Assembly: GCA_001972305.1 (NCBI GenBank)
Contig: BDDD01001462.1
Span: forward strand, 172,102-236,101
Reading direction: 5' to 3'
Length of the DNA: 64,000 nt
DNA from: Cephalotus follicularis
Lineage: Eukaryota; Streptophyta; Magnoliopsida; Oxalidales; Cephalotaceae
Under the pieces are notes generated by a model. That model was given only the letters and a program-made list of their open reading frames with translations, was not told the origin of the DNA and searched no databases. This document shows positions 4,048 to 55,932 of this stretch, one piece after another; position 1 is the stretch's first letter; each line of letters opens with the position of its first letter. The translations under genes were made by a program, and so were the position numbers.

Positions 4048-6120
4048 ATATAGTGACCCAACAAGCCATTGGATGGACTGTCGTTTTATATCTGTTCTTG
4101 TATGAAACAATCTTATTCCTTATATATGATGCGTGCTAATTTGTTATGGCTATATCACTTGTATTTTATCACTTAATTGAAGTAGTTTATTAATATACTT
4201 GTGATGACCTGACATAAGGTTGGATGCCTGGCATGGAGGCTGTGAGACTGGTTACCTTATTCCTTATGTCAAATTTTTTCCAAGTCATAGGTTCACTTTG
4301 TGGGCATTAGTGAACCGGATAGACTTGGGCGTATGTTTCCTGCTCATGGAATTGGTGGATGGATTCTCTCACTACCATCTGTGTTGGACACTAGGGCAAA
4401 TACGGGGTGCGTGCTGGGAGCGTGTACACTGAACTGGACCCGCGTAGGAGACACTATTTGGATAGTCGCTATTCTCGTGTCAGTAGTGACTCCTACTTGT
4501 TGTGGTTGTGTATAAGTGATCATCACTTAGTGGTTCTCTAACTCCTATGATCCTTAGACCTGAGCGACTACTCTATATTGTATGGAGACGGTTATGCTTT
4601 GATCTCCACCTTACCCAGTCCTTACGCAGGGCTGGCAATCGGGTGGTGTTTGGGTATGATCGAATCTATACGAATATAAGTGAGTGCGCAATATGGGATT
4701 GTCACACCTTAGCGAAGGTGATCGGCCCTATGATGGTCTGATTATACTTTGGACTTATGAAATCCTTGGCCAAGGTTGAGGTAGACTGGAAATTAGATTT
4801 CTGGAGAGTTTACCAAAGGTCCTAGTAGTGATCAGATATTTTAGCCATTGAGGTATTATTTAGGGATGACACAATCAGGGCCAAGCATGACAAGGGATTA
4901 TAGTACACGTGAACTGACAACTTAGAAAATCTAGGGTTTATGAGGTGTATGGGAAAATTAATTAGATTAATTTTTCCATATGGATAATATTAGATATTAT
5001 TCCGATAGCATTTAAATTGGTCAAGGACCATTTAGAATGGCTAAACCGGACCCTAGGGGTATTTCAGTATTTTATGAACACCTCTTGTTTTAACCAAGAT
5101 TTTAAAGGGTCCCTGCCTTATAATGATTAGTTCTTTAATATGTTGGACATATTAAGTCTTGGTGTCATATATTGGTTATGTGGATTTTGCATTTTGTGGA
5201 AACACATATGTTTGATCTTACTTAACCAATATTCGAAGGGTACATGAGATCACTATAAGAGTTAGACTCTTATTGCTTCACTGGCCAGATAAAGCGTCGA
5301 CGTCTTTTACAAAGACGTCGATGCTTAACGCTTTTAAAGACGTCGATGTCTTTTAGAAAGCGTCGATCTTTTTAGTGCCACATTCCATGAGCGTCGATGT
5401 CCTTTGGAAGGCGTCGACGTCTTTGAGCAGAACGTGCAATCTCCCATTTTTGCTTGTTATGGGAACGTGGGGATCATGGCCACAGACTCCCTAGGAGTGA
5501 GGACCATGATCCTAAGTGAATGGGAGAGTGGGAGAGAGAAGGATGAGTCTAGTGGTAAGTATTTTCTGCAGAAAATGTAAGGGTGTGGTAAGGTTTTTGC
5601 TGGGCAAGAGAAAGTCGAATTTCTCTCTGCAGATTGTGTGTGTTCCCTTCATTGTTAAACATCAAGCAAGTGCTTATCTAGGGTGGATTGATTTTGACAT
5701 CTTTGGTCAATATCAATTTACCTTTTCTAAGCCTTGTGAGAGAGAGAGAGTTCATACACTTTGTTCTTGGTTCTTGCTGGTTGGAGTAGCTTCTGTTCCA
5801 GGGATTTTGGAGGCAACGTGTTTTGGTGTCTTCCCAAGCGTGTAGCGGCAAAGAAAGAAGGAGCCTTCACCCGCTGGTATATCTCTTGGTCCTTCTCTTC
5901 TTGCCATGCTTATGTGTCACCATTGTATGCTATGGTGACACCAATTCAATTCTGTTGATGATGTGGTGACCCATGTGGTCTTTGGACATGCCTTATGGAC
6001 TGTTTTTAGATTTTATAGGGTGTTCTTCCGCTGCCATTTTGTATGTTTTTTGTTTTGTTCTACACCCTATATGCCTAAGTCCGTTTTTGGCACCGGATTC
6101 GGTTTATCCATTTTCCAACA
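4042..6120 (+). mobile_element. copia 3' LTR (2,079 bp)
   Basis: Begins TGTTAGATATAGTGACCC and ends TTTTCCAACA, a TG...CA pair. A related LTR of 1,321 bp is at 35168-36488 on the other strand; it confirms both ends. About 820 bp here (4272-5091) are absent from that copy, so either this LTR gained or the other lost this block. A cluster of TCGA-centred palindromes is at 5288-5432. GA-rich sequence and a possible transcribed region follow (5500-5780). The short frames 4220-4741, 5516-5958 and 5973-6188 are inside the LTR and show no recognisable protein. Confidence 0.85.
5288..5432. repeat. Palindrome cluster, class 1 (TCGA core), copia LTR
   Basis: Seven closely spaced motifs of the type GCGTCGACGTCTTT, AAAGACGTCGATGC and AAAGACGTCGATGTCTTT. 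They share a TCGA or TCGAT centre with arms that can pair. The homologous copia LTR has the same cluster at 35910-36050. The purpose is unknown; position within the LTR suggests regulatory sites. Confidence 0.85.
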
Positions 6121-6628
6121 CATATGTCTCTGAGTCTGGAATCTTCCCCAAGTACTGTCAAGCCTCTGAGATTCCTATTTCGCCTTGACCATCTCCCATC
6201 AATGAGTGGCCTCACCCCATAGACGTTATACAGCAAACTTCAGTTTTTGAGTGTCAATACAGTCCATTACTTCAAAGATTTTCTCCAAGTCCTACAGCCA
6301 TCTCGCAGCAACAGTAGCGTCAAGTTCCCCCTGGAAACTGGGTGGATTCTGCCTCATAAACCTTTCAATGTGCCTCCCAAACTGGTTATTATCCCCTCCC
6401 GAGCAGTTGTCGGGGGTTCTATGTTGCGGTCGAGCTTGCGCGTAGTACTGGCGCATCTCCTCCGCATTACCCATATTAAAGGCCATCTGTTGCTGAAAAT
6501 AATCCGCAATTTGGGCCATCGGATCTCTGTCATCTTGGGGGACATTTATTCCTTGCGGAATATTCGCTTCCTCAAGGGCATTAGCTCCAACAGCTCTAGC
6601 CCTAGCACGTGTTCTCCTTCAGTCCATT
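6121..6628 (-). pseudogene. gypsy gag N-terminal fragment, cut by the copia insertion
   Basis: Read leftwards from ATG 6628-6626. It matches the gag start of Gypsy-2 (45573 leftwards) at DNA and protein level: ADYFQQQMAFNMGNAEEMRQ and FMRQNPPSFQGELDA, then the start of the capsid helix region. The third codon is TGA (6620-6622), which fits CGA to TGA decay. The frame also shifts near 6380. Similarity to Gypsy-2 gag runs right up to 6121, the edge of the copia LTR, so the rest of gag-pol should lie left of the copia element, outside the window. It is a Tekay-like chromovirus gag by family resemblance. Confidence 0.8.
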
Positions 6629-6723
6629 AGTTCCTGTAATAAGGATGACGGTTAGTCACGACTTTAGGAAAACAATTTATTAATTGCCAAGGAAAATTCC
6701 CTAGCTAAGCATATTTGGAATAT

Positions 6724-6735
6724 GCTCTGATACCA
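6724..6735 (-). other. Primer-binding site of the 6-12 kb gypsy element
   Basis: On the minus strand TGGTATCAGAGC, the complement of the initiator-methionine tRNA 3' end that plant LTR elements usually use. It is three bases inside the end of the LTR (6739) and about 96 bases before the gag ATG, the same layout as in Gypsy-2. Confidence 0.85.
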
Positions 6736-7489
6736 TGTTGTCACACCCCGTTTTCCAAGAAGACAACATTAAATCAGTAAAGCAAACAACCACCATAATT
6801 CAGCTTTTGCGATTTTACGTATAAACAAAAACTTTTAATAGCGGAAGCAATAACATGAAATAAGCTGAATTTAAAATATGTATCACGCATCCCATACTAC
6901 GTGATACCCAAAAAACTCATATAAAAACCCAACATCATTGTCGATCGCTCATGAACGGAGCGTGATAATACAGTACGAAATGAAATAAACCACGGTATCC
7001 ATCAATACATGACAGATGTAAAATCCACGTTACAATAATCCAATTAACAAAACATTGTTCATTAATCCAGATAACATAAACATAGAGAAACAATTCAGTC
7101 TTCTCTTTAGTCTCCTTGCGTGCTCCATATCAAATCCCACTCCATCAATCTATTATAGTAGGGGATTAGCCTTTGTCCTCACTCGGCCAAGTGAATAAAC
7201 TCATAAATGCAGTTCGAGGTATATGATAATGAGTATCATGAATGAATACATCATGATGCAGTACAGTATATATATATCGCAGTATATATATCACAGTATA
7301 TACATATGTAAAGTATATGCATGTTCACAGTACAGATATAACCTCATAAGGCTACATCAACACAAGCAGTAAGTATGTCCCAAAAGGAACCAGACTGTAA
7401 CGACCCAAATTTCCATTAAAGATATTGATTATGGAAAGATGATTTGCTATTGTGTAATGGGCAAATATTTCAAGGGACCCGTAGTATGA

Positions 7490-7695
7490 CCCTACGCTCG
7501 ACGCTTTGGAGGCAACCGACGACGCTCCAAATGTAAGCGTCGATGCTTTGAGATCAAGTATTGAGGTTGACCTGGAGGAGACTTAAAGTGGTGACGCTTT
7601 GTAGGAAAGTGTCAGCGCTTTAGTCGGGATAGAAGTTGGAGAACTCAGGATAAGCCCGTGACCGGCGATGCTTAAGGATAAAGAGTCGACGTTTT
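7490..7695. repeat. Palindrome cluster, class 1, 7.4-kb solo LTR
   Basis: Several degenerate GCGTCGACGCTT-like units, for example GCTCGACGCTTTGG, AGCGTCGATGCTTTG and GACGCTTTGTAGGAAAG. They lie 230-430 bases upstream of the TATA-like sequence at 7922. The sister LTR has its cluster at 19425-19622, also upstream of its TATA-like box. Confidence 0.75.
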
Positions 7696-8436
7696 GCCTT
7701 GTGTCAAGTGTAGAATTCTAGCTTTTTATCCCGTTTCGGAGGATTTAAATGGATTGTAGGACACGTGTCAAGCAAGGGATGGAAGACTTATGATATTTTG
7801 CTAGAAAAGGGCAGGTGGCATTAGCTGAATTGGTTTAATTTAATCACATGGAGGCAAGCTCACATGGGTGAGGTCATGGATGACACCATGCCAGCTTGGT
7901 CTCCAAGTTTCCCTTTCTTCTTATATATGAGTGCATTCTCAGCTGAACAAAGGGTTGGTTTCTGTTGAGCTTGGAGAGGAGAATTCGTGGGAGAGAAGAA
8001 GAGAAGGAGATCAAGTGAGGTAAGGAGATTCTATACCCATTTTATCAAAGTTATTCCTCTATTTTACTTCCAAATTATGCAGAAGATAATTTTATTGATA
8101 TCTTACTCATTTCTTCATGAAAATTATAATGGTTTAATGTTTTAGAAACTTCAAGATGTCTACTTTAACTGTTATGTTTTATGCATCTCGAAATTCTGTA
8201 TAATTCTTGATGAAAAGCCATGTTTTCTTCTACTGCTCAGGTCCTATTTTCAAAAGGAAACTGAAACTTTAAAAATTCATTTCAGCTTCGTTTCTCAATG
8301 GAATTTTATGATTTTTATCTCAATAGATTCATAGAGAAGTCTAATTTAACTTTTATTTTTTAAGTTTTCCATGAAAGTGATTATTTCTATAAGAAATATC
8401 TATTTTAGAAAAGTTATGCAAAACTATTTTCTAAAG

Positions 8437-8886: not shown

Positions 8887-9268
8887 TGTTGACTTTTAGT
8901 CTCAATCCTAAGTTTTAATGATTACAAATTTGCATTTAACTTTGCTACTTTGTGTGCAAGAAACTCTATGTGCAAGAAAAGAAATAAGCAAAACAAAGAA
9001 GTTCAAAAAACAGGGCAAAGCGTCGACTCTTTGATCAAAGCGTCTGCTCTTTAAGGTACAAAGCGTCGAGGATTCTAGTGGAAACTCAAGAGGTCTTGAG
9101 AAAGTGGACGTAGGCACGGATTTGCCGAACCACTATAAATTTGTTTGAACTCCTTCTATCCCTTAACTCTTTATTTAATTGTTCTTGTGTGATTATTTAT
9201 GTTCATTGCTTAATTTGTATTTTCCGCATACAAAGTTATTAGTTAAAGGTTGCCATACATTTCCAACA
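8887..9268 (+). mobile_element. Small copia-type solo LTR (382 bp) with AAATG duplication
   Basis: Starts TGTTGACTTTTAGTCTC, ends CATTTCCAACA, and is flanked by AAATG on both sides (8882-8886 and 9269-9273). The sister gypsy LTR at 17258-19769 lacks this segment exactly, which confirms a separate insertion. TATAAAT at 9134-9140 fits a core promoter on the plus strand. Three class-1 motifs (AAAGCGTCGACTCTTT and variants) lie at 9018-9070, just upstream of that TATA box. No internal region remains. Assignment to copia rests on the TGTTG...CAACA ends and small size. Confidence 0.88.
9134..9140 (+). promoter_or_regulatory. TATA box of the 382-bp LTR
   Basis: TATAAAT in CCACTATAAATTTG, about 250 bases into the LTR and 64 bases after a class-1 palindrome cluster. 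Confidence 0.6.
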
Positions 9269-11049: not shown

Positions 11050-11485
11050 AATAAGCGTCGACGCTTATCCTCTGGGTGTCGACTTCTTTACCTTAAGGCG
11101 CCAGCGTTTCGTGTAGCTATTCCCAGGCATTTTAGGACCAAAGACATCGATGCTTTTCCAGAGATGTCGATGTCTTTATGATACCAGGAGGTATCAGTTC
11201 GCAAAATTTGATTCCAGGGGGAAGAATCCGACCCTTAAACCTTCACACAAACAATCTTATCCTCTCACCGTGTAAGGTGTGGTACTGGTTATCAAAATAC
11301 ATAACCAAATATCAATTCATGAGCAAGTCAGGAAATAAAAAGCATGGATTTCACCGTCCACAACGAATATTAAGGTTATGCAATTTTCCAGAAAAGGCAT
11401 CGATGTTCTAGCAAAACATCGACGTCTGTCATTTTCACACACGAAGGCATCGATGTCTTTTTGTAGGCGTCGATGCCTATTCAGC
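11050..11485. repeat. Palindrome cluster, class 1, downstream set in gypsy LTR
   Basis: Two groups (11050-11180 and 11394-11485) of motifs such as AAGCGTCGACGCTTATC, GATGTCGATGTCTTT and GGCATCGATGTC. Relative to LTR direction (minus) they are downstream of the likely core promoter, matching the 21595-21975 set in the related solo LTR. Confidence 0.8.
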
Positions 11486-12247
11486 CCAGAACGTCATCTC
11501 CAGGGTTTTAACACATCAGGCTATTACCAATCCTTCCTTTACACAAGCCACTTCGAATATTCATGTAAATTACACATGCATGGTTACTCCGTACATCACA
11601 ACAGTCATCACAAAAAATCTAGAGATTACAATTCCTCGATTAACATGCAATTCATCAATGGCATTTCATTATCTTAAAACTCAAAATGCATGTATAAAGT
11701 TCGCCACTTTCCCCTATCTCTGGTTTCAAGTTAGAAACCTTGAAAGTCCACCTCTTTATGTTCCAAGAATTGATCACAGCAGCCCCAAGTTCGTCCCTTG
11801 TAGTAATCCCAGGGCACCGAGTTCCAAGCTCCAAGTGCTCAACAATGGTGGTTCTATACTCTCTCTTTCTTTCTCTGTTCTATCTATTTTCTCACTCCGT
11901 TTCACAATAAATTCTGTTTCTCTTCTTTAGTTCTCTCATTTCCAGGGAGGGAAGGGAGTTTTTTATGTAGAGTGGGGTTTTTGTTTCCATCTGCATTAAG
12001 GCAAGATTCTCTCTTTCTACTCACCTTCTTCACACCAGGTTGCATGGTGCACCAGGTGTCTTCCTTTGGCTGCCAAGTCTTTTCATGTACGCACAAGCAT
12101 TCTCTCTTCAACCTTGCAGGTCAGGAGGTCATTATGAATGCTCAACATGTCCCCCTCTCGTGCCTCAAGTCGCCTGCAAGAGATCTTTGATTCCTTTCCC
12201 TTGCACGTTGTCCTGTCAGTTCATAACGTGACTGATATTCTTTTCAA

Positions 12248-12400
12248 AGTCGTCGACGTCTTCCTTAGACGTCGATGTCTTTTCCTCTTTTATACGAGGG
12301 TGTCGATGTCTTCGTCTACATCGACGTGCATGTACATGCATTCACGTGCGCCCTTTGTTCCCATAGGCGTCGATGCCTTCCAAAGACATCGACGCGTTTA
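12248..12400. repeat. Palindrome cluster, class 1, upstream set in gypsy LTR
   Basis: Motifs include AAGTCGTCGACGTCTT, AGACGTCGATGTCTTTT, CATCGACGTGCATG and GCGTCGATGCC. In LTR direction they lie near the 5' end, upstream of the likely promoter. The related plus-strand LTR has the matching set at 20693-20852. Confidence 0.8.
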
Positions 12401-12600
12401 TCCCAAAACTGCACCGTTTTGCCTCTAATTGCATCATTTAACATTTCTTTAACATTCCAATCATTCCCTCTTCCAAAATCTAACCTTTTAAATTTTGAAA
12501 AGCATCATCTAAGTCAGAAATTGTGCCATTCTCATTAATTCAATAATAAGATTACTGTTCAAATTGGAATATTACAATAACAAAAATCCTGGGCGTTACG

Positions 12601-14339: not shown

Positions 14340-14642
14340 AGGCGTCGATGTCCTTGGTGAAAGACGTCGACGCATCTATAAAATGGTGGAAAGATGTCGA
14401 TGTCTTTGAAAGACATCGATGTCTTTCTCTATTTGTGTAGAGATCTGGTCGAAAGGCGTCGATGTCCTTGGAGAAAGACGTCGATGCGTTTCAATAAAAA
14501 TAGCCTGGGAATGCGCATCGTTGTCTTTTCTGGGGAAAGACATCTCGAGGCAAAGACGTCGATGTCTTTACTGTGGAATCACAGATACAACACTCTGAAG
14601 TGAAAGACTTCGACGTCCATAGGCTAGGGGTCGATGTCTTTG
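14340..14642. repeat. Palindrome cluster, class 1, Gypsy-1 3' LTR
   Basis: About nine units such as AAAGATGTCGATGTCTTT, AAAGACATCGATGTCTTT and AAAGACGTCGATGTCTTT. The matching cluster in the 5' LTR is at 25806-26133; several units differ between the two by single changes. They lie downstream of the TATA box, in the part expected to be transcribed. Confidence 0.88.
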
Positions 14643-18670: not shown

Positions 18671-19424
18671 CAAAAACCTTTATAAAACAGTGTTGCATCA
18701 CTTTACAAAAATAGATATTTCGTATAGAAATAATCACTTTCATAGAAAACTTAAAACCTAGAAGTTAAAGTAGACATATCAACGAATCTGTAGAGATAAA
18801 AATCATAAAATTCCATTGAGAAACGAATCTGCAATGAATTTTTAAAGTTGCAGTTTCCTTTTGAAAACAGGACCTGAGCAGTAGAAGAAAACATGGATTT
18901 TCATCAAGAATTCGATAGAATTTCGAGATGCATAAAACATAACAGTTAAAGTAGACATCTTGAGGTTTTCAAAACATTAAACCATTTGAAATTTCATCAA
19001 GAACTCAGCAGATTATGAATTAAAGTATCTGCTGCATACTTTTGAATCAAAACAGAGGAAAACTTTGAGGAAATGGGTATAGAATCTCCTTACCTCACTT
19101 GATCTCCTTCTCTTCTTCTCTCCCATGAATTCTCCTTCTTCAACTTAGCAGAAACAAGCCTTTTGTTCAGCTAACAAGGCACACATATATAAAGAGAAAG
19201 GGAAGCTTGGAGGCTAAGCTTGGGTGGTGTCATCCATGACCTCACCCATGTGAGCTTGTCTCCATGTGCTTGAATTTAATCAATTCAGCTGATGCCACCT
19301 GCCTTAAAGTAGTAAAATATCATAATTCATACATCCCTTGCTTGACACGTGCCCTTCAAACCATTTAAATCCTCCAAAATTGCATAAAAAGCTAGGATTC
19401 TTCACCTGACACAGGGCAAAGCGT

Positions 19425-19622
19425 CGACTCTTTACCTCTAAGCGTCGACCGTCACAGCCTTTTCCTGCGTTTTTCACCTCTATCCCGACTAAAGCGCTGA
19501 CGCTTTACTACAAAGCGTCGACGCTTTAAGTTGTCTTCCAAGTCAACTGACACATTTTATCTTGAAGCGTCGACTTTTACATTTTAAGCGTCGACCGTTA
19601 ATGACAAAGCGTCGGCGCTTTG
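19425..19622. repeat. Palindrome cluster, class 1, 17-kb solo LTR
   Basis: Units include CAAAGCGTCGACTCTTTA, TAAGCGTCGACCGT, CAAAGCGTCGACGCTTTA and AAAGCGTCGGCGCTTTG. They are about 230-430 bases upstream of the minus-strand TATA-like sequence at 19185-19191. Confidence 0.88.
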
Positions 19623-19774
19623 GGACAGTTTTCTTTCCCAACACTTAGCGGAACCCCCGTACTCCCCGAGCGTAGGGTCATACTACGGGTCCCTTAAATT
19701 ATCTGCCAAAATACACAATAGAAATCATTTTCCATAATTAATATTTTACTAGAAATTCGGGTCATCACAAAGGC

Positions 19775-20516: not shown

Positions 20517-22963
20517 TGTAACGCCCGGTATTTTCCCTGGATGTAATATTTCGATTTATGATGTAATCTTAAACTCGAATTAATGAGAAGGTTGAAGTTT
20601 CAACTCAAAGATGTCTCTAAACCCTAAATATTGCTTAAGGAAGGAAATGGAATATGGGTGTCAAAGCTTGAAACGGCGCTGCTCTAGGATAAAGACATCG
20701 GCGTCCTTGGAAAGACGTCGACGCCTTTGGGAACCAAGATACACGTGAATGCTTGGGCATGCACGTCGACATTTCGTGAAGGCATCGACACCTTCTTACA
20801 AAAATGGAAAAGACATCGACGTCTAAGGAAAGACGTCGACGCCTTTGTAGGAACGTCTGTCGAGCTTTTTCGCTGGCAGAGTAACATGCAAGGGGAATTG
20901 TTTAGAGGCTTTACCTAATGCCTTTTCAAGTGCGTTTCGACGTGTTGAGCATGCTGGTGTACTGACCAGGAGCACTGAAACCTACCCTCACATGGAACAT
21001 GCAAGGAATTATGCCATCCTAACACGCAACCTGCAAAGGGGAGATTAGAAAACAAAGAGAAATGCAGAAAACCTGGAAGTGGGAGAGAAGACGAGGGGGC
21101 CTGTTACATGGCAGAAGAAGGAGGTTAGGTAGGAGCTATATGCATAAGAACAACCCTCCCCACTTCTCTCTCTCGTTTTATAACACCAGAAGAAAGAGAG
21201 GGAATAAAACAGTGTGTGTGTGTGCCATTGTTGAGCTTGGAATAAGCTGAAAGATTGGAGCTCGTGGGTGGCAGTTGCTGAGAAATCTTGGAGCTGCTGG
21301 AAGCCAGAACTTGGGGACTTAAAGAGGTGGACTTTCTAGTTCCTAACTTGGGACAATAAGGTAGGGAAAAGTGATGGACTTATATATGCATTTGGAGTTC
21401 TAAGTTAATGAATAACATGGTGAATTGCATGTTAATGATTGGATTGTGATTCTGGACTTGATGTAGTGTTACTGTGATACACTGAGTTGATTATGCATGT
21501 ATGATTACATGAATATGTGAGTTGGTTGTGTAAAAGATGGATTTGTTAATGGCTTGGTGTGTTAAATCGTGGAAAACACGTTCTATGTTGTAAAGACATC
21601 GACGTCTTTGTAAAGACATCGATGCCTTTTCGGGGAAATTATAGAACTGTGATGTTCATTTCAGATGGCCATTTAGCTACATGGAATCGCCTGTTTAGTT
21701 TTGACTTGATGTTCTGTTTAAGTTACTGTTAACCAGTAGCACGCCTTACACTTTTAAAGTGGGGTATTCGTTTATATGAGGGATTAAAAGGTTGAATTTT
21801 ACCCTCTAGAATCAAGGCTCGCGAGCTGATGCTCTCTGGTATGAAAAAAGACATCGACGTCTTTGTAAAAGACATCGACGTCTTTGGTTCGAATACGTCT
21901 GGAAATATTTGTACTTAGGATTGACGCTTTAGGCTAAAAGACATCGACGCCTTAAGGAATGACATCGATGTCTTTCCTCCTGGACAGTAGAATTTCACTT
22001 GAATAGGACCCGTTAGACCTGAAACGACTCTAGGAACGAACCTAGATGCATTCTGAGCATATGTTTGCATTGTTATTGTGATTTGCATTATGGTTGCTTT
22101 CCTAAAAGTGTTAACCATTTTGAAAAGCTTGCATGGTCATTATGATCATTTGGGTACAAAAATGTATATTTGTCAACATATGAATTTATATATTTTCAAA
22201 ATGATTGGGAAGTATTTCCAATGACTGAGAACTGTTTTAAAGGTTGATTATGAAACCAAATGTAATTTGCGAAAATGTATAATTTACGAATATATATATT
22301 TTCGAAATGATTGGGGAAGTATTTCCAAAGACAGAGAAATGTATTGTTTTAAGTTTTATAACTTATTACAACTTGTGAACGGAATAATATATTTAAACAA
22401 ATATATTTTGATCAAGTAAATATATGTAATTGCTTGACTTGTACTTGAATTGCTTGTGCTTGTTGATTATTAACCACCGTGCTAATAACTTGTTGATTAT
22501 TAGCCATCGTGCTAATAACTTGTTGATTAGACCTGAACTGTATTTATGGGCTTATTCACTTAGCCGAGTGAGGACAAAGGCTAACCCCTACTGTAACAGA
22601 TTGATGGAGTGGCCTTGTCTTGGAGCATGCACGGAGATTTAAAGAGAAGACTTGTTATTTCTCTTATTTATGTATTTTGGGTTATGGATCATGTTACTCG
22701 GTTTTTGTAACATTGGATATTTGTTATCTTGTATTGTATCATTTTCACGCTCCGTTTTGGGCGATCAACAGTTACTTTTGGATTATCGGGCATCACGTAG
22801 TATGGGATGCGTGATGTGTTTTTATATTCGGCTCACTTATGTTGTTGCTTCCGCTATTGAAGGTTTTTAATTGTTGGTATTTTCGCATGAGCTGGATTAT
22901 TTATATGTTGATTGCCTTACCACTTTATATGTTGTCTATGAGTTGGAAAAACGGGGTGTGACA
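20517..22963 (+). mobile_element. Solo gypsy LTR (2,447 bp) in Gypsy-1, AAACC duplication
   Basis: Starts TGTAACGCCCGGTATTT and ends AAACGGGGTGTGACA, flanked by AAACC at 20512-20516 and 22964-22968. It belongs to the family of the LTR at 6739-12600. Palindrome clusters of class 1 lie at 20693-20852 and 21595-21975, on either side of a TATA-like TTTTATAAC near 21176. A 31-bp unit, TTGTTGATTATTARCCACCG-like, is repeated at 22459-22530. The conserved AGTGAGGACAAAGGCTAACC block is at about 22565-22590. Short frames inside (21062, 22430, 22620) show no known protein. Confidence 0.93.
20693..21975. repeat. Palindrome clusters, class 1, 20.5-kb solo LTR
   Basis: Upstream group 20693-20852 (AAAGACGTCGACGCCTTTG, CACGTCGACATTTCGTG, AAAGACATCGACGTC). 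Downstream groups 21595-21632, 21847-21890 and 21935-21975 (AAAGACATCGACGTCTTT repeated). The downstream ones include near-perfect 18-bp palindromes. Confidence 0.88.
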
Positions 22964-37459: not shown

Positions 37460-40400
37460 TGTAATACCCTGTTCGTTCACGTGCATATTTCGGATTTTAA
37501 ATTTGATTTATTGGTTGTGTAGGCATATTTTGTTTTGGCATAATGTGTTCTTTGGGTTATGTGAATTTAAACTTAGGGCTTCTATGTTTATTAGGATATG
37601 ATTGTTGGAAAAACAAAAATCTATTGTCTTGTTATTATATGGTTGATGAATATTGGTTGGATTATGTATATGAATAGGTAAAATTAATTGAATTATATTT
37701 CGTATAAATATTCATTTGGTTTTTATTATTAACGTGGTAAAATTGTTTTAATTGGAAAACAAATCCTTTTATTTTGGGCTTTATAATACCAGTTATATTG
37801 CCTTTGGATAATTGATAAAATATAATTGTAGATAAGTAATAATTGTTGTTTGGCATTTTAAATTGATTAAAATTAGTTTTAACATAAACAAGGTAAAAAG
37901 GGTTTTATTAGGAGACAAATATTGTATAAATGGCAAAAATAGTTTTATTAAGAAACAAAATTCTTATTTTTGGAATAAAAGACTTTTTTTTTCCATATTT
38001 CTTCCCTCTCCTGCCGTTTTCTTCCTTCTCCCTCTCACAAAGCTCATTTCTTTCCTTCTTCCTCTCTCTCAAATCCCAAAATTATGCCCCCTTTCCACAA
38101 TATATCAGAACTTGGATTCCTTTTTGGCTTATCATGAACTAAAGTACCTTATTTCTTGGCTATATATGATATATGCTCTTTGTTTATGCCTCCATTGTTC
38201 ATCTCTGTCCTGGTAGCCGAATTGCATAACTTGGAGCCTGTTTTATGCTTCTTTGTTCATACAATCAGGCTTGTTATCCTCCATTGATTTGGTTTAGCAT
38301 TTAGTTTTGTGTTAAGGTTATCAAGTCTATTACATGTTGTTTTTTTTTATTATTTGCATCTCTAAGTTGTGTCATGGCTTCTAAACTGTTAACATGCATT
38401 AGGTAGATGTTATGTGCTAGTTTTGATAAACAAATAATGATAGTTGACAGGAAATTGATCATATAGGCATCCATGCATGAAATTGAAATTGCTTCTCTTT
38501 GAAGAAAGATCACCCATTGCATGAACTTTTGATTCTGGATGTTTAAATGCCACGGTTAAGTCACATAAGACCTATATAAGTGTTTAAAATCATCTGGTAA
38601 TGTAGTAAAATGGTTTTGACAGAAAACTGGAATTGAACTGCTATGTTTTTGTTGTTCTGTCGCCCAGAACAGTCGACTGCCTCTTGAAACAGTCGACTGT
38701 TTTGCCTTGCACAGTCGACTGGACCCCTGTCACAGTCGACTGGATTTAACCTAGTATGAGTAGTCGACTGCCTATGCCACACAGTCGACTGCCACCTTTG
38801 AGTAGCCGGCTGGATCTTGATACAGTCGACTGGAATTGTCCAGAAAAATTTATGGTTTTAAGTTTTGTAATCCGTTTGTTCGTCTAATGATTTGGAGTCT
38901 GTTTTAAACACTATTAAGTTACTGCTTGATGTTTGGAAATGATATTTGAATGCTTATATGAATGATATTGTATCTTTTAGATTTTTGTGCTTCGAGGGAC
39001 TTTTAAATTGTTGATCAATTCATCTATCTTTGTTGTGATCGCTTAAGGTACGGATTCTTCGTTCTTGGCTTACTCCTTCAGTTTTACTGAAAAGAATTCA
39101 AATATATTTTGTACGAATCTTCGTTTCTTGATACCCTCCTATCGGTTTTATTGTAGTAAATAAAAGATAGTTTCACCATATGAATAATGTACGGATTTCT
39201 CGTTTTTGGTTTATTCTTTCGGTTTTAATTGAAATGAACTCAATTATATTCTGTGTACGAATAATCTGATCTTTGATACTCGTTTTGAACAACATATCTT
39301 TTAAAATAAAACCAGTTTTATGAATATGTCTCTTCGATTTTATGAACTCCGTTATACTCCGTATTTTGATAGGTTTAGAAATAAAGTCGGTATGATATTT
39401 TTGTGATAATGAATATTTTCTGGCTTTATAATTTGATTCTGAATTGTGTACGAAAGGTTATGCAATCGCCTCTTTATTGTCAAAATAAACAAAATGATTT
39501 TCCGTTTATGAAAGTATAATGATAAAGAACATGACTTTCACATTAGGAAGTATGTTAGTTTTTGAATGAGAATACACAGAGATATTTCCCACCTATGGGG
39601 TGTACCATAGGCACGTTGAAGGCCTGGCACGGGGACGTGACACTTCCGTAGCAGTGTGATTCAACTACGGCGTCTCTCTTTGTTTTGAATAAATCCCATG
39701 AGGTGGATTTATGGATCCGATTTTGTGATAGAGGCGTATGGGTATACTCTAGTTTCTGATATGTTAAGGATTCGGATTTTGGGGATTGATTGTGTAGTGC
39801 CGTACACGTCTTTCCGTTTGGCATGTGGGCCTCATGAACCCCTTGCACCTTTGCATATGTGTATGCACTTTGGATCTCGGTAATGAGATTTCGGAATCGG
39901 ATAAGTCTCTGTGATATGTTTGGATCTCTATGATGAGATTATGGAATCGGATAAGTTTTTATTTTAAAATCTTTAACTTGGCTGATGTTAAAGTAATTTG
40001 AACGTTTGACTTGGATACTGTTTTGAACTTGGATTATGTTTTGAAATTGAATAACGCTTTGAAATTAGATATTCGTTTTGAATTGATTTTATGACTACTT
40101 ACTTTCGCTTTTGAAAATCATATTAATTATTTTATGTACAAGGTGTATGATATTTAAAGGTTCAGGTATTTTCTATCTTTTAAATTATCGTTTTATGTTT
40201 TATGATTCTATATCCGTACTGAGGTTTGCTCAGCCGCGTTTTTGTTTCCATGCGGCAGGTATTCTGGGACAACATCCGGGCAATGTGTGATGAGCGAGAT
40301 GTCACCTATGATAAGGATCACGTAGGAGATGGAACCGTTTATGCTTAGTTATTTTATGGTCATGTTAGAACCCTTATTTGAACAATATTATGTCTTTTAG

Positions 40401-40525: not shown

Positions 40526-43500
40526 TTTTTATTAGGATGACTGTTGGAAAAACAAAAATCTATTGTCTTGTTATTATATGGTTGGTGAATATTGGTTGGA
40601 TTATGTATATGAATAGGTAAAATTAATTGAATTATATTTCGTATAAATATTCAATTGGTTTTTATTATTAACGTGGTAAAATTGTTTTTATCGGAAAACA
40701 AATCCTTTTATTTTGGGCTTTATAATACCAGTTATATTGCTTTTGGATAATTGATAAAATATAATTGTAGATAAGTAATAATTGTTGTTTGGCATTTTAA
40801 ATTGATTAAAATTAGTTTTAACATAAACAAGGTAAAAAGGGTTTTATTAGGAGACAAATATTTTATAAATGGCAAAAATTGTTTTATTAAGAAACAAAAT
40901 TCTTATTTTTGGAATAAAAGACATTTTTTTCCATATTTCTTCCCTCTCCTACCATTTTCTTCCTTCTCCCTCTCACAAAGCTAATTTCTTTCCTTCTTCC
41001 TCTCTCTCAAATCCCGAAATTATGCCCCCTTTCCACATTATTTCAGAACTTGGATTCCTTTTTGGCTTATCATGACCTAAATTACCTTATTTCTTGGTTA
41101 TATATGATATATGCTCTTTGTTTATGCCTCCATTGTTCATCTCTGTCCTGGTAGCCGAATTGCATAACTTGGAGCCTGTTTTATGCTTCTTTGTTCATAC
41201 AATCAGGTTTGTTATCCTCCATTGATTTGGTTTAGCATTTAGTTTTGTGTTAAGGTTATCAAGTCTATTACATGTTGTTTTTTTTTTATTATTTGCAACT
41301 CTAAGTTGTGTCATGGCTTCTAAACTGTTAACATGCATTAGGTAGATGTTATGTGCTAGTTTTGATAAACAAATAATGATAGTTGACAGGAAATTGATCA
41401 TATAGGCATCCATGCATGAAATTGAAATTGCTTCTCTTTAAAGAAAGATCACTCATTGCATGAACTTTTGATTCTGGATGTTTAAATGCCACGGTTAAGT
41501 CACATAAGACCTATATAAGTGTTTAAAATCATCTGGTAATGTAGTAAAATGGTTTTGACAGAAAATTGGAATTGAACTGCTATGTTTTTGCTGTTCTGTC
41601 GTCCAGAACAGTCGACTGCCTCTTGAAATAGTCGACTGTTTTGCCTTGCACAATCGACTTGACCCCTGTCACAGTTGACTGGATTCAACCTAGTATGAGT
41701 AGTCGACTGCCTATGCCACACAGTCGACTGCCACCTTTGAGTAGCCGACTGGATCTTGATACAGTCGAATAGAATTGTCCAGAAAAATTTCTGGTTTTAA
41801 GTTTTGTAATCCGTTTGTCCGTCTAATGATTTGGAGTCTGTTTTAAACACTATTAAGTTACTGTTTGATGTTTGGAAGTGATATTTGAATGCTTATATGA
41901 ATGATATTGTATCTTTTAGATTTTTGTGCTTTGAGGGACTTTTAAATTGTTGATCAATTCATCTATCTTTGTTGTGATCGCTTAAGGTACGGATTCTTCG
42001 TTCTTGGCTTACTCCTTGGGTTTTACTGAAATGAATTCAAATATATTTTGTACGGATCTTCGTTTCTTGATACCCTCCTATCGGTTTTATTGTAGTAAAT
42101 AAAAGATAGTTTCAACTTATGAATAATGTATGGATTTCTCGTTCCAGGTTTATTCATTCGGTTTTAATTGAAATGAACTCAATTATATTCTGTGTACGAA
42201 TAATCTGATCTTTGATACTCGTTTTGAACAACTGATCTTTTAAAATAAAACTAGTTTTATGAATATGTCTCTTCGATTTTATGAACTCCGTTATACTCCG
42301 TATTTTGATAGGTTTAGAAATAAAGTCGGTATGATATTTTTGTGATAATGAATATTTTCTGGCTTTATAATTTGATTCTGAATTGTATACGAAAGGTTAT
42401 GCAATCGACTCTTTATTATAAAAATAAACAAAATGATTTTCCGTTTATGAAAGTATAATGATAAAGAACATGACTTTCACATTAGGAAGTATGTTAATTT
42501 TTGAATGAGAATACACAGAGATATTTCCCACCTATGGGGTGTACCATAGACACGTAGAAGGCCTGGCACGGGGACGTGACACTTCCGTAGCAGTGTGATT
42601 AAACTACGGCGTCTCTCTTAATTTTGAATAAATCCCATGAGGTGGATTTATGGATCCGATTTTGTGATAGAGGCGTATGGGTATACTCTAGTTTCTGATA
42701 TGTTAAGGATTCGGATTTTGGGGATTGATTATGTAGTGCAGTACACGTCTTTCCGTTTGGCATGTGGGCCTCATGAACCCCTTGCACCTTTGCATATGTG
42801 TATGCACTTTGGATCTCGGTAATGAGATTTCGGAAACGGATAAGTCTCTGTGATATGTTTGGATCTCTATGATGAGATTATGGAATCAGATAAGATTTTA
42901 TTTTAAAATCTTTAACTTGGCTGATGTTAAAGTAATTTGAACGTTTAACATGGATACTGTTTTGAACTTGAATTATGTTTTGAAATTGAATAACGCTTTG
43001 AAAATTAGATATTCATTTTGAATTGATTTTATGAATACTTACTTTCGCTTTTGAAAATCATATTAAATTATTTTATGCATAAGGTATATGATATTTAAAG
43101 AATCAGGTATTCTCTATCTTTTAAATTATCGTTTTATATTTTATGATTCTATATCCGTACTGAGGTTTGCTCAGCCGAGTTTTTGTTTCCATGCAACAGG
43201 TATTCAGGGAAAACATCCGGGCAATGTGTGATGAGCGAGATGTCACCTATGATAAGGATCATGTAGGAGATGGAACCATTTATGTTTAGTTATTTTATGG
43301 TCATGCTAGAACCCTTATTTGAGCAATATTATGCTTTTCAGTTTTGACTTAGAATTATGTTTAAGCTTTTGGTTTATGTTTAACATTCCAGACCATGTTT
43401 AAGTTTTAGATTATGAATAAAGTTTTCAGACTATTTGTTAGATTATATATGTTACGTTTAGACCATCACGCAATTTGAATTAAAGATGAGTTAATAATTT

Positions 43501-46972: not shown

Positions 46973-47164
46973 AAAGCGTCGGCGTTTATTCCTCAGGCGT
47001 TGACGCTTATGTCCCTTAAGCGTCGACGTTTAGTCCCATAACGTCAGCGCTTTCAGTGTCTGGGCATCGATATCCCCTCCCTTAGACGTCGACGTTTTAT
47101 ACGCATTCAACATAAAACACAATTCACTGTATTGAGCGTCGACGCTTACCCAAGGCGTCGACGG
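46973..47164. repeat. Palindrome cluster, class 1, Gypsy-2 5' LTR downstream
   Basis: AAAGCGTCGGCGTTTATT, TTAAGCGTCGACGTTTA, GACGTCGACGTTTTAT and GAGCGTCGACGCTTACC among about seven units. Confidence 0.87.
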
Positions 47165-47939
47165 TATCATGCAGGGGTCATCTTCTACCTCACGACATGA
47201 GCAATCAGTGACATTCCCACATCAATAACATGCAAACCAACATGTAAAAAGCCCAGAAAACGGGCATGCAATATCACATTACACATCCAGTATAACATAT
47301 CAACATTTCCTTGACTAAATATAGTCCATCAAACCATACAATCCATGCAAAACATTACCGGACAAAACATCAATTATTGGACCCAAAGTATAGTTATGGC
47401 TTCCCCTACCTCAGGCCTCAAGTTAGAAGCTGAAAGTCCACCTCTTTTAGTATCCAACCAGTCACTTTGAGCTCCCAGGTACGGCTTGAAAGTTCCATGG
47501 TTCATCCCAGCAGTTGGTGTGCAAGCTCCAAGCTTCCTTTGCTCAATAATGGCGGTGTCTCTCTTTCGCTTTCACTCTTTTCTGCTCTCTTTGTCACTCA
47601 CAGTGTCATTAATCCCTCTGGCTTTCAATAACATATGAGAGGGGTGAGAGGAGTCGACTTTTATGTAGATTTCCTTTTGTTTTCTCTGCATGTTCTCCTA
47701 CTTTCCTCTCCTCTCCCATTTGGGCAACCTGGTGCAACAGGTGTCCATCTCTTCCCTTTCACAGGCCATGCACTCAGAGATTGTCCCTCTGTCCCATGTC
47801 CTTTTGTTGCAGGTAGGTCTGGTAACAAATGCATGTGTTGCCATGTTCCTAAAACGCCTGCTAAGATGCTTGATAAGTGGCACAATTCACCTCCATGCGA
47901 AACGTCCATCTGTTGTTGTGTGTATGCAGAACACGCAGC

Positions 47940-48045
47940 AAAGCGTCGACGTTTACATGCAGGCGTCGGCGCTTATGTGTTTAAATTTAAACGCGCGTTT
48001 CAATCGCTTAAGCGACGACGCTCCAAATCTAGGCGTCAGCGCTTT
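47940..48045. repeat. Palindrome cluster, class 1, Gypsy-2 5' LTR upstream
   Basis: AAAGCGTCGACGTTTACAT, GGCGTCGGCGCTTATG, AAGCGACGACGCTCC and GGCGTCAGCGCTTTAA, homologous to 29566-29672. Confidence 0.85.
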
Positions 48046-48314
48046 AACCTCAAAACTGTGTCATTTAACTAAATTTTACACTTTTAACATTTCTCAAACA
48101 ATTGAACTCCAAAATCAACATCATCAGAGTTTGGGATAATGTAATAACCGCAACTTCAATTAATGTATATTGATCCAATTTTAAATTTAATATACATTTT
48201 AATTGAGTTAATTGTCCAATTATATTGATTTCTATGATTGGTAATTGCTTGGGATGATTTGATGTACAATTGGAGATGTATCAAAGATTAGAAAACCCTA
48301 AACCAGCTCAACCA

Positions 48315-48395
48315 GCCGACTGTCACAGGGCAACAATCGACTGTTTGCTACGTATTGAAGGTAGTCGACTGCCCAATATATCCAGTCGACTGGAT
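48315..48395. repeat. Palindrome cluster, class 2, 48-kb solo LTR upstream
   Basis: CCGACTGTCACAG, CAATCGACTG, TAGTCGACTG and CAGTCGACTGGAT, lying 250-330 bases upstream of the TATA-like sequence. Confidence 0.85.
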
Positions 48396-48630
48396 TTACC
48401 CAGGACAGATTCCTGGCATGTGCAGGGACAAGAATGACAGGTGGGATAAGGGCACTTGTGTCTCACCACCTGCCAGAACATGCAAAAGTGAATGTTTGCA
48501 TGTTCTCTGCAGACCTACAACCTGCAAATTGATAATTTATGAGGGAAAAGTGAAAAGAGGAATGCATGTGAAGGAAAGAAAATGAGAGAAGTGTGAGTGC
48601 ATGTGAGTAGGGAAGGAATCTGACGAATTC

Positions 48631-48652: not shown

Positions 48653-49438
48653 AGATGTTGAATGGTGAAATAAGTGTTAGAAAACGCTGAATATAGAGGA
48701 AAGTTGCTGGGATTATTGAGAGCTTGTTTGGAAGGATTAGAAAACTCAAAGAAGGAGGATTGAAGCTTGGACTCTTGGTAAGTTTCTAAGCTCGAACTTA
48801 CTGTTATTGTAATGATAATATAACTAGGAGAATGATGAATACCTTCTGTTCACATAATTAAAGATAACAAATTCTAGAATTTATTAGAAATGGTAATGGG
48901 AGGAAGAAAGAATGTGAATATGGAGCTTTGAGAAATTATGTAACTCTAACTTGAATTTGTAGTGGTTGATTAGTGTTATAAACTCAATGATTCCCTTAAG
49001 TATACCTACTGTTGAACATGCAAATCAGTAGATGGATTGAGTAAATTATTCGGAATAAGGAAATGTTTTAAATGGGATTAGAGACTTAGAAATTCTAATA
49101 ATCCTTGATTCATTCAGATGATGATGATGATTATAGAAATTGATTAGTAGATATACATACTAATTTCATGTATATATATATATCTCCTGTCGCAAATGTA
49201 AATATAGATTGATTTCTGCTGGGAATTGAAAGTGTTGGTGAAAAGGCTTTGGAAACTCAAAGTGAAAGATCACTGCAATTGATCTTGGGATAAGATTTTG
49301 AGGTAGGGGCTATGATATGACTGTGAAATATATATTATGCATGTCATGTTTGATGGTTATACTGATTGTATGTGTTTGGTTGAATGATTGGTTTGAGAGC
49401 CTGCATATTTTATTCTGCGGAATGAACTTCCGGGAAAA

Positions 49439-49553
49439 AGCAGTCGACTGTTCATAGGGAACAGTCGACTACTCAACCTAATTAGTCGACTGCCAAAGAA
49501 AGCAGTCGACTGCTGGGAAAATATAGCCGACTGCCATAGGTAGGCAGCCGACT
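49439..49553. repeat. Palindrome cluster, class 2, 48-kb solo LTR downstream
   Basis: Six units: GCAGTCGACTGTTC, ACAGTCGACTACTC, TTAGTCGACTGCC, GCAGTCGACTGCTG, TAGCCGACTGCC and CAGCCGACTGTAC, spaced about 20 bases apart. Confidence 0.9.
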
Positions 49554-51313: not shown

Positions 51314-52812
51314 TGTAATAACCGCAAATTCAATTCGTGTACATTGTAATAATGATTAATAAAATGCGCACTCATTGAATTTAATGTCCAATTATTATAA
51401 GTTGTGTTTGGTAATTGCTTGGAATGAATGGAGATGCAATTTGGTGAAAATCAAACTTAAGAAAACCCTAAAACAGCCTTGACAGCCGACTACCATAGGG
51501 GGGAAGTCGACTGCCTGGTTTATGAAGGGGCACCCGACTGTCACAGGGGAGAAGTCGACTGCCTGGTGTGTGTTGTGGACAGTCGACTGGCTAATGCCTC
51601 CAGTCGACTGGATCGGTACAGAACAGGTGTCTGTGCATTCCTATTGGACTGAATCAATGGGGCATTGCATGAAGGGGCAGGTGTCATGCATGTCAGGGAC
51701 TGCCAGAGCATGCAAGATAGAATGCTTGCATGTTCTCTGCAACCTGCAAAACAAAATGGAAAGAAGAGAAAGGTAAGAAAGAGATAGAAATTTCAAAGAT
51801 CGAACCAACTATGGGCTATGTACCCAAAATTATGATATCACTTATCATTCACAAATGAAAACCTATTGATTTTCTCCTACAGAGAGATACCATCTGTTTG
51901 TTCTTCAATCGAGAACCATTATTGTATTTATATCGTTTTCCTCCTATGAGATGTACGATAATTGACTTGTTATATGTTTCTAAAGAAAACATCTTCATAT
52001 TGCATACTATTGATATATGTAATATTATTATTGAAAGGCTTCAATTGGTTGTCTATGCTTATTGCCGGTAGTCGAGTGATGGATGTGGCCACCGACTACG
52101 GTAGGGATCCTGGGTGCCAGGAGTTGGCCAGCGATCTCCCAAACTTATCTGCATCGCAGATCTTATTTGTTAAACTACCCGCCAACGCCGGTAGTATATG
52201 TACCTGTTCTATCATCCTCGGAGCACAGGAGATAGTTAGGTAGTGCACAGTCGGAGCTAGGAGTTAGCGGCATGTGACACCCATGGATGTATTGCTTGTA
52301 CCCTTGTGTGGTATTCTTGCATATGGACTGTTTATGGCCACTTGGCATGATTGCTTATATATTGGCTCGTTTAAATGTTATTTTAATTATAAACGGTCAT
52401 ACATGTTGCATTCATATATTCCTTAGCATGCATTATCTTCCTACTTAGGCAAGTGAGGACAACGGCTAACCCCCCTACAGTTTCAGATTAAGTGAAGACT
52501 TGGAGTTACGGCTGAAGCTTGGAGAGCTTCTACTTTTGGTTGAAGGTTGTTATTTCATTTTACGTTATGTAATGTATTGAACGGTTCATACCCCGTTGTT
52601 ATCGTACTTCCTTATATAAGGATATTTATTTGATTACCTGCACGTAGTATGGGCTGCGTGCGGACGACTTGTGTTTTATATTACGGCTTATTGACTGCTT
52701 CCGCAGATTATTTAATGAACTATTGAATGAAATGCTGGAATATTATGTTTAATTCTGATATCACCATATATGCTTGTCTTAATTGTATGGAACCAAAAAT
52801 CGGGGTGTGACA
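51314..52812 (+). mobile_element. Gypsy-3 5' LTR, core promoter region replaced or deleted
   Basis: TGTAATAACCGCAAATTC to CGGGGTGTGACA. Identical in layout to the 3' LTR except the middle: 51786-52136 here has no counterpart at 56107-56277, and vice versa. The TATA-like hairpin of the 3' LTR is missing here. Class-2 palindromes are at 51481-51612. The conserved block GTGAGGACAACGGCTAACC is at about 52454. Confidence 0.88.
51481..51612. repeat. Palindrome cluster, class 2, Gypsy-3 5' LTR
   Basis: CAGCCGACTACC, GAAGTCGACTGCC, CACCCGACTGTC, GAAGTCGACTGCC, ACAGTCGACTGGC and CCAGTCGACTGGATC, six positions. Confidence 0.9.
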
Positions 52813-54900: not shown

Positions 54901-55614
54901 GAGACGATGGGTGGTATTCTTTAGTGACTACTACTGCCACATTCAATACCACCCGGAAAAGGCGAATGTAGGTGACCGTTGCGCTGAGTCGCAAGGCAAT
55001 GATTGCTAGAGCAATGGTTTCCCGAGGAGTTATTGTGACAAGTATGAGAACACAACCGGAACTTCTGGAGCGAATTCTGACTGCTCAGTATAGCGACTCT
55101 GAATTGTGGAGTATCCGTGAGAACCTGGACTCTAAGCCTGAGTTCTCCATTCACACTGATGGCATATTGAGATTCCGAGGAAGGATATGAGTTTCGGATG
55201 ACGAGAGCATCAAGGATGAGCTGCTGCAACAAGCTCACAAGTCGAACTACAGTGTCCACCCAGGAAGTACTTGAAAAGAAACTACTGGTAGAGTGGTATG
55301 AAACGGGAAATTACTGAAAATGTTGCAAGATGTTGACCTGTCAGCAAGTGAAAGCTGAACACCAGAAATCTACTGGAATGCTACAATCTCTACCAGTGGT
55401 TGAATGGAAATGAGAACATGTGACCTTGGGCTTGTATCGGGATTGCCGAGGTCACAGGATCGGATGGAAAAGGTACTGAGGAACAAGACCATTCCTATGG
55501 AAAAAGGGCGGTGGCGTCTCACGGGGCTGAGGAAGCTACGTGGGAGCGTGGGGATGATGATGGAGACACTTCCCCCTTGTTCGGAATGTAAGGGCTAAAT
55601 TGGAGGACGAATTT
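54901..55614 (+). pseudogene. Gypsy-3 RNase H end, integrase remnant and chromodomain
   Basis: RNase H tail with YHPEKANV, a linker (LRFRGRI, about 55170), the zinc-binding part (YWWSGMKREI-like, 55260-55360) and the beginning of the integrase core up to SGLPRSQ (about 55450). It then jumps to VLRNKTIPM and a chromodomain-like segment (about 55475-55590). The integrase DDE core and C-terminal domain, roughly 1 kb in relatives, are missing. Non-autonomous. Confidence 0.8.
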
Positions 55615-55632
55615 TCTTTAAGGAGGGAGGAA
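55615..55632 (+). other. Gypsy-3 polypurine tract
   Basis: TTTAAGGAGGGAGGAA directly before TGTAATAACC. Confidence 0.88.
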
Positions 55633-55800
55633 TGTAATAACCGCAAATTCAATTCATGTACATTGTAATAATGATTAATAAAATGTGCACTCATTGAATT
55701 TAATGTCCAATTATTATAAGTTGTGTTTGGTAATTGCTTGGGATGAATGCAGATGCAATTTGGTGAAAATCAAACTTAAGAACACCCTAAAACAGCCTTG

Positions 55801-55932
55801 ACAGCCGACTACCACAGGGGGGAAGTCGACTGCCTGGTTTATGAAGGGGCACCCGACTGTCACAGGGGAGAAGTCGACTGCCTGGTGCGTGTTATGGACA
55901 GTCGACTGGCTAATGCCTCCAGTCGACTGGAT
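55801..55932. repeat. Palindrome cluster, class 2, Gypsy-3 3' LTR
   Basis: Same six positions as 51481-51612; nearly identical. It lies about 270-400 bases upstream of the TATA-like sequence. Confidence 0.9.

Follow-up and report, generated by a model that had tools for sequence, protein, structure and literature searches.

Phased, class-specific arrays of palindromic boxes in copia and gypsy long terminal repeats of Cephalotus follicularis as probable docking sites for DNA-binding proteins

The long terminal repeats (LTRs) of retrotransposons in a 64,000-nt stretch of the Cephalotus follicularis genome (contig BDDD01001462.1, positions 172,102 to 236,101; the window) carry arrays of short palindromic boxes that are far in excess of expectation, are nearly confined to LTRs within the window, belong mostly to one sequence class per array and follow one another at a step of two helical turns. 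Boxes of one class are present in both copia and gypsy LTRs, which have no other detectable similarity, and in most of the LTR pairs compared the boxes are better conserved than the sequence around them. These palindromes probably constitute cooperative arrays for DNA-binding proteins that act as symmetric dimers near the promoter.

The window was examined for palindromes against the mean of 30 dinucleotide shuffles. Perfect palindromes of at least 10 bp with a TCGA centre number 28 where 2.67 are expected, followed by those centred on TATA (16 against 5.9) and ATAT (12 against 6.6), and 71 of 458 near-palindromes (at least 5 of 6 base pairs complementary) are TCGA-centred. LTRs, assigned by hand from a self-alignment of the window and with approximate limits, occupy about 36.0 of the 64 kb; they contain 68 of the 71 near-perfect TCGA sites (1.89 per kb, versus 0.11 per kb for the 3 sites in the remaining 28.0 kb), as well as all 19 copies of the word CAGTCGACTG and all 51 matches to the word AAGRCRTCGAYGYCTT with up to two mismatches, counts that are not independent because the LTR set includes homologous copies. 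Plain CG density is not enriched in LTRs (25.9 per kb, versus 28.1 per kb outside). Near-palindromes with other centres are likewise more frequent inside LTRs than outside, but far less so than those with TCGA (TGCA 0.78 versus 0.32 per kb, AATT 0.58 versus 0.25, TTAA 0.75 versus 0.14).

Throughout the 1.577-Gb assembly, CAGTCGACTG occurs 197,377 times and its reversed word 939 times; the corresponding numbers are 114,924 and 521 for AAGRCRTCGAYGYCTT, and 73,186 and 121 for its variant GCGTCGACGC. The three words thus amount to approximately 0.38 million perfect boxes (the latter two may overlap slightly), and each exceeds its reversed word roughly 200- to 600-fold; the excess of CAGTCGACTG is understated because its reversed word is itself a box motif of another class (gamma, below) and not a neutral control. 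Two control TCGA palindromes are near or below their own controls (CTATCGATAG, 712 versus 471 reversed; TCGACGTCGA, 746 versus 1242); the excess is specific to certain words, not to TCGA or CpG in general. In 20 arbitrary 10-kb pieces of the genome (200 kb, including 4.6 kb of N), 55 near-perfect TCGA sites were found, compared with 71 in the 64-kb window, and perfect TCGA palindromes showed a milder excess (19 versus 10.6 expected) than those of ATAT (88 versus 22.6) and TATA (74 versus 19.6); the window is therefore a rich example, above the genome average. A first-pass annotation of the window had proposed that TCGA palindromes cluster beyond chance, and that an LTR density equal to that of shuffled or non-LTR sequence would speak against this. 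The excess in the window is confirmed and is greater than first stated, and the densities are clearly unequal.

The TCGA-centred boxes fall into two classes, alpha (AAGRCRTCGAYGYCTT, with variants GCGTCGACGC and AAGCGTCGACGCTT) and beta (CAGTCGACTG, often AGYCGRCT). Alpha boxes are hosted in the window by copia LTRs, by the gypsy LTRs designated E13 and E46 and by LTRs X and Y, and beta boxes by LTRs at 32509-43440, 48138-51077 (E48), 51314-52812 and 55633-56953 (Table 1). The original description of a TCGA-centred system holds for these two classes but is too narrow, since boxes of a third class, gamma (TCAGCTGA), have a different core at the same spacing; the cores altogether are (G/A)TCGA(C/T) or CAGCTG. 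A gamma array of six boxes, four exact and two with one change, is present at locus L025, which had been fetched for its alpha clusters, and the exact gamma word forms 345 close pairs genome-wide. The gaps of the L025 array (21, 28, 21, 22 and 20 bp) match the last five in two beta arrays, those at 38667 and 41606, where the counterpart of the gamma box reads AGTCGACT. Outside the arrays, seven of eight gamma-beta LTR comparisons scored below the shuffle maximum and the eighth scored 43 versus 42; the flanks do not align, and a common origin of the two arrays could be read only from the order of gaps. Arrays are nearly pure by class: the genome contains 109,168 close pairs of beta boxes (18-24 bp start to start) and 41,163 of alpha boxes, versus 261 and 274 mixed pairs on the two strands, a ratio that is approximate given the unequal lengths of the words compared. 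Many of the mixed pairs listed consist of an alpha-like flank next to a beta word, and in one array, at L026, a lone alpha box is separated from the neighbouring beta boxes by 42 and 51 bp.

Spacing within arrays is narrowly distributed. The first 100 beta pairs listed are 21 bp (65 pairs), 20 bp (25), 22 bp (9) or 19 bp (1) apart, with none at 18, 23 or 24 bp; the first 50 forward alpha pairs all lie at 19-22 bp with 16-30 bp allowed, and 49 of 50 listed forward gamma pairs lie at 20-22 bp. A recount from the coordinates gave identical spacing counts. Because most of the listed pairs are from a single contig and their numbers are inflated by copies of one family, the spacers were reduced to clearly distinct ones (edit distance above 4), namely 20 of 69 typed beta and 19 of 50 gamma spacers. 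Nineteen of the 20 distinct beta spacers correspond to 20-22 bp (19 bp, 1; 20 bp, 2; 21 bp, 15; 22 bp, 2), as do 18 of the 19 distinct gamma spacers (18 bp, 1; 20 bp, 4; 21 bp, 13; 22 bp, 1). The DNA helix has about 10.5 bp per turn, and the box step of 19-22 bp is two helical turns, while the spacers vary. A further 19,656 beta pairs are 25-32 bp apart, and the 50 listed in forward orientation (47 at 27-29 bp, two at 26, one at 30) define a secondary class; thus the spacing of about 20-40 bp given in the first-pass annotation resolves into a peak at 20-21 bp and a second class at 27-29 bp. CGTG is found near the middle of 21 of 40 typed 27-29-bp linkers, which suggests that a second kind of site may lie between box pairs, though related families share linkers. 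By eye, some long linkers contain a TGCA..TGAGT word (e.g. window 48337-48358). Only 2,737 beta pairs are 8-17 bp apart, and 23 of the 50 beta-like pairs listed on the forward strand in this range are AGTCGACTCGCTGAGTCGACT, a separate exact GAGTCGACTC repeat at a spacing of 13 bp (e.g. G000:C1:172866 and L009:6680-6710) that is distinct from the LTR arrays. A scan for chains of similar 8-mers at 19-22 bp (189, versus 153 and 137 at control spacings) was swamped by AT-rich words and did not discriminate.

Pairwise LTR comparisons were scored as identical over aligned positions in boxes, array spacers and the remainder, and boxes exceeded all other aligned positions in five of six: E38/L014 (58/64, 114/174 and 242/445; by another aligner, boxes 58/64 versus others 398/568), L028/L029 (76/80, 194/286 and 838/1426), E51/L029 (30/32, 86/128 and 174/226), E48/L029 (77/80, 144/282 and 682/1128; boxes versus all others, 77/80 and 826/1410) and Y1/Y2 (75/87, 309/468 and 649/1032). 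In these five pairs identity is 86-96% in boxes, 51-68% in array spacers and 54-77% elsewhere, figures that somewhat favour boxes, as these were set by motif match in either sequence and sites decayed in both were missed. The dyad itself is kept, because the arms are complementary beyond the core: among 94 non-redundant sites of 213 clustered ones, complementarity is 0.65 at arm position 4 and 0.51 at arm position 7, versus 0.35 in shuffled sequence at each.

The LTR at 5288 is assigned to copia by a gag open reading frame (ORF) at 900-2393 (Pfam) and an RNase H-like ORF at 3460-4044 (by eye, with no Pfam match); the gag ORF finds its best match in C. follicularis (84% identity over 58% of the query). 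E13 is gypsy by domain matches to gag (23757-24512) and integrase SH3 (15390-16289), the location of an RNase H domain links E46 to gypsy, and X and Y may be gypsy-like. The proposal that two copia and at least six gypsy families carry the clusters is borne out for the copia LTRs at 5288 and 35911 and for gypsy E13 and E46, but the copia label of the boxes at 9018-9070 was not confirmed: these lie in a stretch of LTR X1 for which X2 gives no alignment, and the sequence around them (8887-9174) matches an alpha LTR-like repeat at L025. With boxes masked, alignments of one copia LTR to E46, X1, Y1 and E13 were all (4/4) within the range of 20 shuffles, in agreement with the earlier proposal that copia and gypsy LTRs share the motif without common descent. 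Shared alpha boxes were therefore not inherited along with shared LTRs; convergence or the transfer of short stretches remain as their possible sources.

Two arrays per LTR are present in E46, E48, L028, L029 and Y. The 5' LTR of E46 is ordered as array 1 (+100 to +190), a TATA-like site (+475) and array 2 (+977 to +1156); E48 has array 1 at +177 to +250 and array 2 at +1305 to +1410, with a TATA-like site at about +507 by eye only; and L028 and L029 each have two beta arrays about 1.04 kb apart. Each of two TATA-like sites at L027 is preceded by an array, one by a copia array at a distance of about 260-350 bp, the other by a beta array at about 260-330 bp. Where placeable (E46, X1, L027), an array precedes the TATA-like site by about 240-420 bp, and in some LTRs (E46, and E13 as its sole array) an array follows it by about 500-900 bp. 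The statement that clusters sit upstream of the TATA box and often also downstream is thus accurate for E46, and in its upstream part for X1 and both L027 LTRs, but not for E13, where the array is downstream only.

Table 1. Arrays of palindromic boxes in the window (positions in the window; gaps are start to start, in bp)
Feature	Position	Strand	Details
Alpha array, copia LTR	5288..5432	+	8-mers at 5295, 5316, 5341, 5392, 5412; gaps 21, 25, 51, 20
Alpha boxes, several degenerate	7500..7700	+	Close to the beginning of LTR X1 (7396-10472); TATA-like site lies downstream, at LTR +527
Alpha boxes	9018..9070	.	Inside X1
Alpha array 2, LTR Y1	11050..11480	-	Boxes 11051, 11398-11464
Alpha array 1, LTR Y1	12245..12419	-	Gaps 19, 49, 49, 19
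Alpha array, gypsy E13 3' LTR	14340..14640	-	Downstream of TATA-like site
Alpha array, LTR X2	19418..19625	-	
Alpha array 1, LTR Y2	20690..20847	+	Gaps 48, 50, 20
Alpha array 2, LTR Y2	21588..21975	+	
Alpha array, gypsy E13 5' LTR	25800..26070	-	
Alpha (GCGTCGACGC type) array 2, E46-family 3' LTR	28602..28780	-	
Alpha array 1, E46-family 3' LTR	29580..29660	-	
Beta array	33710..33860	+	Gaps 22, 21, 28, 21, 21, 20
Alpha array, second copia LTR copy	35911..36050	-	
Beta array	38667..38835	+	8 boxes; gaps 20, 22, 21, 28, 21, 21, 20
Beta array	41606..41775	+	Gaps as at 38667; some boxes degenerate
Alpha array 2, E46-family 5' LTR	46973..47160	-	
Alpha array 1, E46-family 5' LTR	47930..48045	-	Some boxes degenerate
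Beta array 1, LTR E48	48313..48400	+	Gaps 21, 28, 21
Beta array 2, LTR E48	49438..49550	+	Gaps 21, 21, 20, 21, 21; inverted repeat next
Beta array, LTR 51314-52812	51481..51615	+	Gaps 21, 27, 21, 28, 21
Beta array, LTR 55633-56953	55800..55932	+	

Several other features of these LTRs were noted. A short inverted repeat of varying sequence stands close behind several arrays (window 33857-33885, 49570-49596 and 48400-48420; L025:1790-1805), by eye for example ATTGTCCG..CGGACAAT or CCAGAAA..TTTCTGG, and the beta array at 38667 and that in L014 have, again by eye, GTTCTG..CAGAAC ahead of them. Near the 3' ends of the E46, E48 (about +2575 to +2605), 51314 and E13 LTRs there is, also by eye, GAGGACAAAGGCTAACCCCC or a looser variant, accompanied in some of them by a TTAGCC..GGCTAA hairpin. 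Within the E48 LTR, a 106-bp unit is repeated in tandem about 2.8 times (50237-50536). The order X-Y at 7396-12419 returns as Y-X on the opposite strand at 17258-22515; this inversion and permutation of related LTR pairs points to insertions that were nested or rearranged. The stretch 60082-61561 has two plus-strand ORFs side by side (205 and 278 aa, the latter coiled-coil-like by eye) as well as overlapping minus-strand ORFs; three of these ORFs were scanned, with no match in Pfam. Scans of the window for tRNA genes and Rfam families gave no matches.

From the layout of the arrays we infer that the boxes dock sequence-specific proteins, which would bind as symmetric dimers because the boxes are palindromic. 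Arrays of about 4-8 boxes would, through the two-turn phase of 20-21 bp, place adjacent dimers on one face of the helix, where they could bind cooperatively. The near-purity of arrays points to one factor per array, with alpha, beta and gamma each read by different factors or paralogues, and their location near the promoter suggests that they serve transcription or its protection. Selection for recruitment of the factor, whether for activation or for protection from silencing, would keep the boxes while spacers drift, and new boxes may come in part from local tandem duplication. Copia and gypsy LTRs would share a box class by responding to the same trans-acting factor in the host; a host-coded factor is favoured because the two superfamilies share a class and because no element ORF stood out as a candidate among the 9 window ORFs scanned. 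A broader version, in which copia and gypsy have converged on phased arrays for a few cooperative factors as a host-wide docking code and whole arrays switch class with the order of gaps kept, can be offered only tentatively; if true, the two superfamilies would share a cis-encoded arms-race code.

Several observations weigh against docking by phased dimers. The secondary spacing of 27-29 bp is not a whole number of turns. LTRs X1 and X2 show no conservation of boxes (16/21, versus 94/121 in spacers and 350/411 elsewhere; 16/21 versus 444/532 for all other positions, p 0.37), and L029 is common to three of the five positive comparisons, which are thus not independent. The TATA-like sites were called by consensus or by eye; E13 (TATA-like site at +171) has its sole array, under a strict box definition, downstream at +773 to +987. 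Part of the periodicity is due to duplication alone, as shown by tandem units in the L027 copia array and among matches of Tandem Repeats Finder (TRF).

This last point also speaks for a passive account, in which units of about 21 bp grew by slippage or unequal exchange and were spread by LTR recombination as functionless minisatellites. TRF finds head-to-tail units, mostly of 19-21 bp, at several arrays; repeated 21-bp units and some recurring spacer words are seen, the former in the L027 copia array; and the targets of VANC proteins (below) likewise grow by tandem duplication, according to the portions of that literature consulted. Such an origin is nevertheless unlikely, as most spacers are dissimilar (20 distinct of 69 beta, 19 distinct of 50 gamma) while boxes and phase are kept, the boxes of the five positive pairs are far more alike than their spacers, and drift would not preserve the complementarity of both arms; judged by the beta and gamma spacers the whole unit is not repeated together with its spacer, although in the L027 copia array it is in part. 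The somewhat less improbable idea that the trans-acting protein is coded by an element, a VANC-like anti-silencing protein of one transposable element (TE) family exploited by unrelated LTRs that acquired its boxes, still strikes us as doubtful. It would suit the layout, which resembles VANC targets in its short class-specific motifs arranged in tandem in non-coding DNA, and several classes in near-pure arrays would fit factor-specific codes; there is also a precedent in VANC6, which by the available text acts on AT9TSD1, an element unrelated to VANDAL. However, the boxes are unlike the VANC motifs given in the part of PMC5735166 seen, and no candidate stood out in a small survey of 9 of the 11 window ORFs of at least 180 aa, of which four have gag or pol Pfam matches and five have none (two of these being RNase H-like or gag-like by eye and the three at 60082-61561 unassigned). 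A search of the genome for DUF1985 (VANC) gave no matches, as was also the case in the control genomes, and so weighs neither for nor against such a protein.

That LTR families exchanged sequence through recombination or template switching, and later retained it under selection, is improbable as the whole explanation but compatible with docking of dimers: identical alpha words occur in copia and gypsy LTRs, and the LTRs here are nested and rearranged, but the shared arrays come without flanking homology. We give very little credence to a function in RNA, as kissing or dimer-initiation sites of the genomic RNA or as hairpins. Self-complementary GUCGAC-like loops do resemble retroviral dimer sites, and downstream arrays would be within the transcript, but the fixed two-turn spacing has no obvious meaning in RNA, and pairing is disfavoured because the commonest imperfection of gypsy and gypsy-like alpha boxes on the inferred sense strand (judged by eye for LTR Y) is A-C (15), unpaired in RNA, rather than G-U (4). 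Copia alpha boxes show the reverse (5 G-U, no A-C).

The regulation of LTR retrotransposons is mostly known family by family; here alpha boxes are found in both superfamilies. In Tnt1, Tto1 and ONSEN, repeated cis boxes in U3 recruit host transcription factors, and to our knowledge those boxes belong to single families and are not common to superfamilies. The box sequences are ready baits for isolating a factor, and comparing copies whose arrays are intact, decayed or of another class offers a natural experiment on the role of the arrays in activation, insulation or anti-silencing. If the same kind of protein docked throughout, this would be a direct route to what switches the elements on or lets them evade silencing. 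A 2016 paper reportedly deals with palindromes in maize Sirevirus LTRs. The word CAGTCGACTG occurs in 29 open-licence papers, of which the 20 listed all bear titles unrelated to the present subject. No report of LTR palindromes in this genome was found among the titles listed from the open-licence literature, which leaves aside subscription papers, nor is there any treatment of palindromic LTR arrays in the accessible parts of PMC4963935 and PMC3601003.

Compared with known systems, VANC targets in the VANDAL DNA transposons of Arabidopsis are the functional parallel, one with a known, TE-coded factor (motifs YAGTATTAY and AGTTGTCC/AGTTGTAC; PMC5735166 and PMC10398659, in the parts consulted); as described there, target arrays evolve partly by tandem duplication, the motif differs among related TE families and an unrelated TE shares it. 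The parallel drawn by the first-pass annotation is apt for the architecture, arrays of short motifs in non-coding TE DNA, but not for the sequence, as the enriched words here are unlike the VANC motifs, which themselves were not searched for. Gypsy LTRs of the Del lineage have, according to the text of PMC4029996 available to us, a variable CpG-bearing stretch in the 5' half and sometimes a second in the 3' half, which resembles the layout here, with the CpG island absent in the eudicot Del group; neither PMC4029996 nor PMC5735166 uses the string "palindrom" in its main text. The arrays are of a kind already known from the repeated-motif (RM) boxes of Sirevirus (Ty1/copia) elements. Each element that bears RMs has eight or more of these palindromic boxes with dyad symmetry; they gather upstream of the TATA box, within the upper half of the LTR, the cluster delimits a CpG island, and the motif varies between elements, with extra boxes before env (Bousios et al. 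2010, PMC2829016, as far as the portion seen goes). Palindromic boxes with a dyad, repeated within the LTR, are likewise found here, upstream of a TATA-like site in E46, X1 and both L027 LTRs though not in E13, and a TCGA centre also occurs in two boxes described in that source, CGGTCGACCG of Vitis and ACAATCGATTGT of Tnd-1. RM boxes were described as restricted to Sireviruses, and 12 of the 13 RMs have a CGG-CCG signature, whereas the boxes found here lack that core and gypsy LTRs (E13, E46) carry arrays beside a copia LTR; the portion of PMC2829016 seen makes no statement on box spacing. What looks new in C. follicularis is the occurrence in both superfamilies within one genome, the fixed phase of 20-21 bp, near-pure classes common to several families, a second array in several LTRs, and the scale.

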